From: a virus
Length of the DNA stretch: 31,671 nt
IMG/VR virus record: IMGVR_UViG_3300027973_000155
Span: 1 to 31,671 of that record
Direction: 5' to 3' (one strand)
Shown: positions 6,664-8,826 of the stretch, one piece after another
Numbering within the stretch: position 1 is the first letter of the stretch
Layout of the letters: every line of letters starts with the position of its first letter
Translations under genes and position numbers: made by a program
Notes under the pieces: model-generated
Databases searched by the model: none
Told to the model about the DNA's origin: nothing
Seen by the model: only the letters and a program-made list of their open reading frames with translations

Positions 6664-6816
6664 ATGGATAAACAAACCGCTACCACACTTGCTGGCTCAC
6701 AGAGTGAGCTTGCTCGTATCCTCGGCATAACTAGGGCTGCTGTCTTTCATTGGAAGACAATCCCTAAACTACGCATTTATCAACTAAAAGAACTCAGACC
6801 AGAGTGGTTCAAATGA
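6664..6816 (+). CDS. Cro/YdaS-like helix-turn-helix regulator
   Basis: A 50-residue protein, MDKQTATTLAGSQSELARIL then GITRAAVFHWKTIPKLR. The SELARILGITRAAVFHWK segment is a clear helix-turn-helix, as in Cro or YdaS-type proteins, with recognition helix around residues 27-35. It is the first rightward gene at the divergent promoter, the place of Cro in lambdoid phages. No ribosome site precedes the ATG, consistent with a leaderless transcript. The stop overlaps the next start (ATGA). No partner repressor is present on the opposite strand. Confidence 0.8.
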   Translation: MDKQTATTLAGSQSELARILGITRAAVFHWKTIPKLRIYQLKELRPEWFK

Positions 6817-7181
6817 CACAAGAAGCAATCATCAGGGCATTACAAAATGGCCCACTTACATCCTACCAACTAGAGGATTTAACTGGCATACCCAGACTAT
6901 CTATTGCAGCTTGTTGCACAAAAATGAGCTACAAGAAGAAATTAAAAATTGGAAAAATTAAGATGGGACGTTCTTGGGTTTCTCAGTACACGTTAGAGCC
7001 ACACATGATTGAAGCTACCAAAGCTGCCAATGATGAGCCTTACGACAAGCTAAATCCATTTGATATTCGTAATGCCAGAGGTATCTTTACCAAGGCTGAA
7101 TATGCGGTGATGAACGCACAAGCTATTAGATTGCTTGGCAGACCAGTTGCAAACGAAATTACAAACAATCAATTTATCTAG
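6813..7181 (+). CDS. Winged-helix-like protein, possibly regulatory
   Basis: 122 residues, starting MTQEAIIRALQNGPLTSYQL at ATG 6813, which overlaps the Cro-like stop (ATGA). Residues 5-60 resemble a winged HTH: TSYQLEDLTGIPRLSIAACC forms a helix-turn-helix and SWVSQYTL a wing. The C-terminal part (NPFDIRNARGIFTKAEYAVM) is not recognised. The position between cro-like and replication genes matches lambda cII, but no sequence relation to CII is visible. Confidence 0.65.
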   Translation: MTQEAIIRALQNGPLTSYQLEDLTGIPRLSIAACCTKMSYKKKLKIGKIKMGRSWVSQYTLEPHMIEATKAANDEPYDKLNPFDIRNARGIFTKAEYAVMNAQAIRLLGRPVANEITNNQFI

Positions 7182-7187
7182 TACAAT
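7159..7187 (+). promoter_or_regulatory. Candidate promoter of the structured leader
   Basis: TACAAT at 7182-7187 with a weak TTACAA at 7159-7164, spacing 17. The predicted start is 7193-7194, which coincides with the first base of the closing stem of the RNA described next. The preceding TTTATCTAG also occurs at 6608-6616. Confidence 0.5.
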
Positions 7188-7192
7188 GTTTT

Positions 7193-7260
7193 GAAACACG
7201 GCTAGGTACGAAGTCATGAGCGTACCGAAAAGGGTTCACCCTTTCCCCTGCCGAGGTTTC
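7193..7260 (+). ncRNA. Structured leader RNA, three-way junction
   Basis: The outer stem is GAAAC (7193-7197) with GTTTC (7256-7260), continuing after a small internal loop as CGGC (7199-7202) with GCCG (7250-7253). Inside are hairpin 1, GGTACG (7205-7210) with CGTACC (7221-7226) around a 10-base loop, and hairpin 2, AAAGGG (7229-7234) with CCCTTT (7239-7244) around TTCA. All four helices are perfect Watson-Crick. A second AAAGGG at 7266-7271 could compete for CCCTTT, and TTCACC (7235-7240) is the reverse complement of GGTGAA (7283-7288), the likely ribosome site of the replication gene. It does not match a riboswitch or ribozyme class I know. It could be a translational switch or a separate small RNA. 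Confidence 0.65.
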
Positions 7261-7291
7261 TTTCCAAAGGGCGTTATAAAGCGGTGAAATT

Positions 7292-8005
7292 ATGCTATTA
7301 CAGCCAAAGAATTGGGCAGTCTTTCAACATTACAAAGACAGATGCCCTCCGTGGATAAAACTACATCGTGACCTGCTAAACGATAGGTCTTATATGCGCT
7401 TGCCTATTGCTAGCAAGGCACTAGCACCTATGCTCTGGTTGCTTGCAAGTGAGTCAAAAGATGGTGTTTTTGATGGCTCACTAGATGAGCTAGTCTTTCG
7501 TCTGCACATTAGCGAGAAAGATTACCAAGCTGGTGTGAAGCCATTGATTGATAACAACTTTTTTACTGTTGTTAGCGGAGTGCTAGCAGAACGCTTGCAG
7601 ACTGCTATCCCAGAGACAGAGACAGAGACAGAGACAAAGAAAGAGAAGAAGACACTCGGCAAACGCCTCGCTTCTGATTTTAGTTTTCCAAAAGAATGGG
7701 AAGAATTCTGTCAAACAGAACGCCCAGAACTTAGCCCTGTCAAAACCTTTGACCAATTTAAGGATTATTGGATAGCCCAAGCTGGTCAAAAAGGTGTAAA
7801 GCTGGATTGGTTTGCGACATGGCGAAATTGGGTTAGAAGCACCAACGCACCCAAGCCAAACCCTTATGACGTTGTAAGGCTCACAGTTCCGAGCAGAAAT
7901 GAGCCTGACCCTGCGTTAGAAAAGATTAAAGCTGATGCGAAAAAGGCTGCACCCATGCCAGACCATATTCGCCAAGCAATGAATTCATTAAGGAAAAAAG
8001 CATGA
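7292..8005 (+). CDS. Phage replication protein (helicase-loader or initiator type)
   Basis: 237 residues. The N-terminal PPWIKLHRDLLNDRSYMRLP followed by LWLLASESKDGVFDGSLDEL resembles the winged-helix domain of phage replisome organisers. A linker with ETETETET (coded by GAGACA repeats near 7614-7637) leads to a C-terminal domain ending in DWFATWRNWVRS, a motif typical of DnaT/gpO-like helicase-recruiting proteins. There is no ATPase or polymerase motif, so host DnaB and polymerase would be recruited. Its leader carries the structured RNA at 7193-7260. It overlaps the next gene by 4 bases. Confidence 0.75.
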   Translation: MLLQPKNWAVFQHYKDRCPPWIKLHRDLLNDRSYMRLPIASKALAPMLWLLASESKDGVFDGSLDELVFRLHISEKDYQAGVKPLIDNNFFTVVSGVLAERLQTAIPETETETETKKEKKTLGKRLASDFSFPKEWEEFCQTERPELSPVKTFDQFKDYWIAQAGQKGVKLDWFATWRNWVRSTNAPKPNPYDVVRLTVPSRNEPDPALEKIKADAKKAAPMPDHIRQAMNSLRKKA

Positions 8006-8826
8006 GCAACCCATTCAAAATTATTGAGCCAACTTGCGTTAGTTTTTCTGGCGGTAGAACTTCAGCTTATATGCTTTACAAGGTGTTAGAGGCTCACGAC
8101 ATGAGCCTACCTAAAGACGCTGTTGTTTGTTTTGCAAATACAGGCAAAGAAGACGAAGCAACTTTGAGGTTTGTCGAGAATTTTAGTAAAGAGTGGAATG
8201 TTCATATCAATTGGCTTGAATGGGATTCGGTTGATGGCAAACCAACATTTAAAGTTGTTGACTATGAAACTGCCAGTAGAAATGGTGAGCCATTTGAAAA
8301 ATGTATTCATCATTACAGAAAATTGCCTAATCCAGCGCAACGATGGTGTACTGGTCAATTAAAGATACGAACAATACATCGGTACTTGCGAAGTCTTGGT
8401 TGGGACCACGATGAAAACGATAACAATGATTTTGTTGGAATTCGTGCTGATGAGCCAAGACGTGCTGCCAAGATGAGCAAAAACAAGTTGCCACTTTATT
8501 TGTCTGGCGTTACAAAAGAAACAATAAACCAGTTTTGGTCTGAACAATCTTTTACTTTAGATTTACAGATTCATCGTGGTGAATCTTTGCTTGGAAATTG
8601 TGACCTTTGTTTTTTAAAAAGCGTAGACAAAAAAGTTAACATTGCAAGATTACATCCTGAAAAAGTTTTATGGTGGGCAAAAATGGAAAGTGATGTATTT
8701 GAGATGAGCAAAGAATCAACAGGATTTAATAAGGGGCATCCGTCTTATCGTGAATTGCATAATTTTTCAGCAAATCAAATGCAAATGTTTGATGACCAAT
8801 CGATAGATTGCTTTTGCGGGGATTAA
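8002..8826 (+). CDS. PAPS reductase-like (adenine nucleotide alpha-hydrolase) enzyme
   Basis: 274 residues. FSGGRTSAYM (SGGRTS at 16-21) is the PP-loop, then FANTGKEDEATLRFV, RWCTGQLKIRTIHRYL, FVGIRADEPRR, and Cys clusters NCDLCFLK and CFCGD. This order matches the phage 'phosphoadenosine phosphosulfate reductase' family, related to both CysH and DndC. The cysteines could hold a metal or Fe-S centre. In phages it may aid sulfur supply or modify DNA or tRNA; with no other dnd or cys genes nearby the reaction is undecided. It overlaps the replication gene by 4 bases. Confidence 0.82.
   Translation: MSNPFKIIEPTCVSFSGGRTSAYMLYKVLEAHDMSLPKDAVVCFANTGKEDEATLRFVENFSKEWNVHINWLEWDSVDGKPTFKVVDYETASRNGEPFEKCIHHYRKLPNPAQRWCTGQLKIRTIHRYLRSLGWDHDENDNNDFVGIRADEPRRAAKMSKNKLPLYLSGVTKETINQFWSEQSFTLDLQIHRGESLLGNCDLCFLKSVDKKVNIARLHPEKVLWWAKMESDVFEMSKESTGFNKGHPSYRELHNFSANQMQMFDDQSIDCFCGD

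Follow-up and report, generated by a model that had tools for sequence, protein, structure and literature searches.

An int-alpA-family RNA before a phage replication gene, a probable antisense repressor of the gene it precedes

The window, by which we mean the whole stretch of DNA analyzed, is a 31.7-kb viral contig (31,671 nucleotides) that carries a compact structured RNA element between an unmatched upstream gene and a replication gene (Table 1). A small Cro-like regulator (6664-6816) precedes the upstream gene, and the early region as a whole looks lambda-like: besides this regulator and the replication gene, it has Erf-like and SSB genes, which lie on the opposite strand. The terminase has its nearest relatives in the Methylophilales phage Venkman and an environmental podovirus, and more distant ones in HTVC010P-type pelagiphages. 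As originally predicted, the element is free of ORFs (none of at least 60 aa within 7193-7260 on its own strand).

Table 1. Positions of the RNA element, its parts, and the neighboring features in the window
Feature	Position	Strand	Description
Upstream gene	6813..7181	+	Without Pfam or PHROG match; usual companion of the RNA in the clade (80 related loci)
Predicted promoter	7158..7187	+	-35-like ATTACA 7158-7163, -10 TACAAT 7182-7187, 18-nt spacer
int-alpA-family RNA	7193..7260	+	RF02996, 37.6 bits; covariance model R1, 81.1 bits
Closing stem, 5' side	7193..7202	+	GAAAC and CGGC pair with GCCG 7250-7253 and GUUUC 7256-7260
Arm 1	7205..7226	+	Stem GGUACG/CGUACC, loop AAGUCAUGAG with palindrome UCAUGA
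Conserved junction CGAAAAG	7226..7232	+	From the alignment; conservation partly by construction (elements picked using CGAAAAG)
Arm 2	7232..7247	+	Stem GGG 7232-7234 / CCC 7245-7247; putative antisense loop UUCACCCUUU 7235-7244
Box A, AAAGGG	7266..7271	+	Complementary to CCCUUU of the arm-2 loop
Box B, AAAGCGGTGAA	7278..7288	+	The entire loop can pair with it, one C being bulged; spans the Shine-Dalgarno of ATG 7292
Replication gene, presumed target	7292..8005	+	phrog_26426 replication protein, E 1.2e-30

The three-way-junction fold is real, judging from the strong covariation with which it is kept among 43 distinct relatives. We collected 160 related loci via the replication gene and the upstream gene. 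The covariance model (R1) was built from 43 distinct elements first picked by a search for CTAG, CGAAAAG, and CCTG, so their invariance in the alignment partly reflects how the elements were chosen; members deviating from them were recovered afterwards with the covariance search. The model finds the RNA in nearly all of the 160 loci and in 18 of 18 long contigs of the window's clade. Its three helices covary, with 97.5% of cells paired and 89 cells changed on both sides (0 of 500 shuffles as high). The inner part of the closing stem covaries, and arm 1 has both-sided changes at four of its five modeled pairs. The outer GAAAC/GUUUC part was left out of the model because the linker length varies, and in the alignment both of its sides are altered, by eye and in few members, in those with GGAAT/ATTCC and ACACGC/GCGTGT.

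In the window itself, the minimum free energy of 7193-7260 is -22.8 kcal/mol (z -2.4; 3 of 200 shuffles equally good), and the four helices originally predicted do fit into the 68 bases. Covarying stems had been named as the evidence that would support them; three helices covary and the fourth, AAAGGG/CCCTTT, does not. That stem is not conserved (paired in 54.6% of cells, covariation absent), although nearest-neighbor energies favor it in the window copy (-22.8 versus -19.3 kcal/mol). The conserved third helix is instead formed by G7232-G7234 with C7245-C7247, three pairs that are 100% paired and expose the loop UUCACCCUUU; both sides of the middle pair are changed in 23 of 43 sequences.

The original prediction held that the element belongs to no known class. 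The Rfam search that it proposed returned an existing family, RF02996 (int-alpA), with 37.6 bits against a gathering cutoff of 35.8 and with model positions 1-71 of 71 covered (window 7195-7271). Like int-alpA, the element is a three-way junction with CUAG, CGAAAAG, and CCUG. It is unlike it in that arm 1 in the window is longer than in most bacterial members, the closing stem is weak, the element in this clade has its own adjacent promoter, no integrase was detected, and the upstream gene is not recognized as AlpA. The location between integrase and alpA that gave the family its name was not recovered in the window or in 17 related contigs, which may be incomplete, and is context rather than part of the definition of the RNA. 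The motif was reportedly described by Weinberg et al. in 2017; we found no published function for int-alpA (RF02996), as our literature search gave only a passing mention in an unrelated study. By a pattern scan that covers the commonest form, the family turned up in 40 of the 369 genomes sampled from a single bacterial class. Nine named phage records (replication gene and terminase relatives plus P1 and P4) contain no RF02996 match over the cutoff, and no DNA similar to the element was found in cultured phages. A Brevibacillus genome (L189) and a viral contig (L391) have the same member sequence, with loop AUCCAUCCC and, by eye, GGGATGG boxes; the family is therefore not confined to Proteobacteria.

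In the window's clade, comparison of relatives gives the RNA a conserved promoter of its own. The ATTACA/TACAAT pair found by the promoter scan is no more than expected by chance by itself, and the element starts 6 nt after TACAAT. Across 25 dereplicated relatives that differ in the sequence before the element, two sites stand out in information content, TG-n-TATAAT and the -35 position, and the start falls at GAAAC, which bears out the predicted start at the first base of the closing stem. A TATAAT-like hexamer is present at the same spot in 52% of 40 other dereplicated clade members (about 75% if a shift of one base either way is allowed). The -10 element is extended in many members, and its fixed distance places the start at the first base pair. 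Two results count against the interpretation favored below: family members beyond the window's clade lack a dedicated promoter, so it is unsupported as a family-wide trait, and no canonical terminator follows the RNA.

Pairing of the arm-2 loop with boxes A and B is strongly supported by comparative evidence from several hundred relatives. The sequences directly 3' of the RNA vary in step with this loop, and in the window the predicted duplex of the loop with box B has an energy of -10.2 kcal/mol. For 22 loop types from close relatives, the mean energy with the own tail was -8.84 kcal/mol, versus -6.25 kcal/mol when permuted (0 of 20,000 as low); collapsing the set to five clusters left a weaker p of about 0.008, which counts against the favored interpretation. 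For 93 new types in other viral contigs, among the matches listed, the values were -10.24 versus -6.14 kcal/mol (0 of 20,000); both viral pattern scans need fixed letters, and the type counts are samples among the matches listed rather than totals. Bacterial members of int-alpA follow the same rule, with -10.04 kcal/mol for own and -8.38 kcal/mol for swapped boxes (0 of 20,000 permutations) in a set of 46 bacterial-genome types, of which at least one (L212) is a weak parse. The box A and box B regions are each significant alone (z about -17; 113 loop types). Two caveats apply to these tests: the loop types share descent, and the duplex energies take no account of competing structure. The first box starts a median of 15 nt after CCUG (interquartile range 15-17), and the reverse complement of the tail gave no match signal as a loop target. 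Simple cofolding of the window RNA with the leader yielded a gain of only -0.5 kcal/mol, which also counts against the favored interpretation; the gain is small because cofolding prefers the unconserved arm-2 hairpin. Of the proposal that this is a new cis-regulatory or small RNA of early replication, the regulatory part is supported, each loop type being complementary to the ribosome-binding site before its own replication gene, and the claim to a new class falls away.

Phages with nearly the same replication gene (98-99.7% identity across 300 nt) can differ in the loop, each with boxes to match (L010 versus L007; L002, a close copy of the window, versus L015), from which we conclude that specificity is exchanged as a cassette. 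Arm 1 also differs among close relatives and combines freely with arm-2 types. Box B sits at the ribosome-binding site before unrelated genes. In the clade, several kinds of replication initiator are found downstream of the RNA; in other viruses the downstream genes encode GIY-YIG and HNH homing endonucleases and DUF927 proteins, which we take to be primase-helicase-like; in bacterial members they are mostly uncharacterized.

The arrangement recalls C4 of P1 and P7 (RF01695) and CI of P4, where a pair of target boxes likewise comes immediately after a three-way-junction RNA, the second of them at the next gene's ribosome-binding site. In the P1 annotation (L165) the succession is the one seen here, from the RNA through two boxes to the start codon, with C4 at 344-420, a2 at 424-430, b2 at 453-460, and icd from 471. 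P1 C4 represses by binding near the ribosome site, and antisense pairing underlies P1/P7 heteroimmunity (PMC12197685). For P4 CI, pairing occurs with targets both upstream and downstream and brings about early termination (PMC4825925). The likeness does not extend to sequence. C4 is absent among Rfam matches to the element up to E = 5, model R1 does not match the C4 of P1 and P4, and with no match in either direction, including the phage records, homology to C4 by sequence was rejected. The use of segments differs as well: C4 uses two, the loop of hairpin 2 for b2 and a junction strand for a2. Separate antisense segments a' and b' were not found here; the junction strands are conserved and a single loop fits both boxes. 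Within 3 kb, upstream arm-2 boxes of the a1/b1 type, as in C4, were no commoner than expected from other types. Plasmid copy-control antisense RNAs (RNAI/RNAII and similar) provide loop-mediated control of replication with specificity types, in which the phage RNA would, by analogy, resemble them. They are unlike it in being transcribed from the strand opposite their target, whereas the RNA and its presumed target here lie in tandem on the same strand.

From the loop/box match, the C4-like order, and the C4 and CI precedents, we infer that the element most likely represses translation of the replication gene as an antisense RNA. It would thus be an exchangeable, C4/CI-like off-switch for the next gene, probably acting in trans as immunity. 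The exposed arm-2 loop would pair with box A and box B in the leader of the replication-gene mRNA, and pairing over the Shine-Dalgarno would block ribosome binding; early termination may be promoted too, as for P4 CI. With a promoter of its own in the window's clade, the RNA could act in trans on the phage's own mRNA and on that of any co-infecting phage sharing its loop type. A swap of loop and boxes as a unit would change the immunity type. The exchange of cassettes favors action in trans, whereas the narrow spacing and the lack of a family-wide promoter favor action in cis. Lysogenic immunity is not evident, which counts against this interpretation: no tyrosine integrase, S24 repressor, resolvase, or ParA was detected in 18 clade contigs (the window and 17 relatives, 30-41 kb), all of them linear records that may be incomplete.

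The main alternative, rather less likely, is that the element is a leader switch acting in cis, in which the arm-2 loop within the replication-gene mRNA itself forms a pseudoknot either with box B, closing the ribosome site, or with box A, leaving it open, and a ligand or protein that recognizes the conserved junction makes the choice. Such a switch would fit the constant adjacency of RNA and boxes on one strand at a narrow distance. That one loop fits both boxes would make the two pairings mutually exclusive within one molecule, and the junction is strongly conserved, if partly by construction. Most family members have no adjacent promoter, and the promoter in the window's clade could simply be that of the replication gene. 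A helix in cis, however, needs no change of specificity between phages whose replication genes are 98-99.7% identical, and such phages carry different sets. In addition, the annotation of P1 treats C4, whose parts come in this order too, as a separate antisense RNA, and antisense pairing operates in P1/P7 heteroimmunity (PMC12197685).

Inverted repeats fold as DNA too, and given the location just before replication genes the element might instead be a replication origin or a single-strand initiation hairpin rather than an RNA device. We consider this very unlikely, since the loop finds its boxes only on the mRNA strand and has no match in the tail's reverse complement, the complementarity is located at ribosome-binding sites, and family members precede homing-endonuclease genes as well. 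Less probable still is that the match between loop and boxes is functionless and reflects the general fit of a pyrimidine-rich loop to a purine-rich ribosome-binding site. Shine-Dalgarno sequences are indeed purine-rich, and swapped pairs still reach about -6 to -8 kcal/mol, but permutation among types, which keeps composition, attained the observed value in 0 of 20,000 trials in each of three sets, and box A is significant alone although it lies outside the last 19 nt before the start codon.

A palindromic tetramer (CATG, GATC, AATT, AGCT, and GGCC were seen) occurs in 71% of 59 distinct arm-1 loops versus 40% of shuffled loops (0 of 2,000), an enrichment that is suggestive only, as the loops of relatives are not independent. 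Linked arm-1 targets within 3 kb showed no excess over other types. Kissing dimers through the arm-1 loops are possible. Tentatively, and with more doubt than for repression itself, int-alpA could constitute a large natural set of exchangeable, mutually orthogonal antisense modules (more than 100 loop/box types seen) in phages, genomic islands, and homing genes. In these phages, where no lysogeny genes were detected, it might confer an immunity to superinfection that needs RNA alone and acts when replication is initiated. The RNA might also dimerize via the self-complementary arm-1 loop, which would let a pair of identical arm-2 loops occupy box A and box B at once. If the antisense reading holds, an RNA family for which we found no published function would gain a testable and specific mechanism, and the C4/CI principle, known from a few model phages, would extend to many more phages as well as to bacterial genomes and homing-endonuclease cassettes. 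The family would also supply many naturally matched antisense/target pairs. It would further pose a puzzle: no lysogeny genes were detected in these phages, yet they retain a diversifying antisense switch on the replication gene.

By eye, some genes downstream of such elements (L323, L423, L341) resemble Rha or KilA-N antirepressors, whose role would be similar to that of the gene controlled by C4 in P1. A second, diverged element of the family is present in some phages of the clade (L047:6148-6206, L045:1191-1250, and, on the minus strand, L107:1580-1642 and L124:939-1001). These second elements precede another gene and have, by eye, a loop/box match of their own, for example a loop with ..CUCAUCA.. 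and boxes TGATGA and TGATGGAG. In the window, a tandem GAGACA repeat (about 7611-7640) lies inside the replication gene between its two conserved parts, and a PAPS-reductase-like gene (8002-8826) is located directly 3' of the replication gene.
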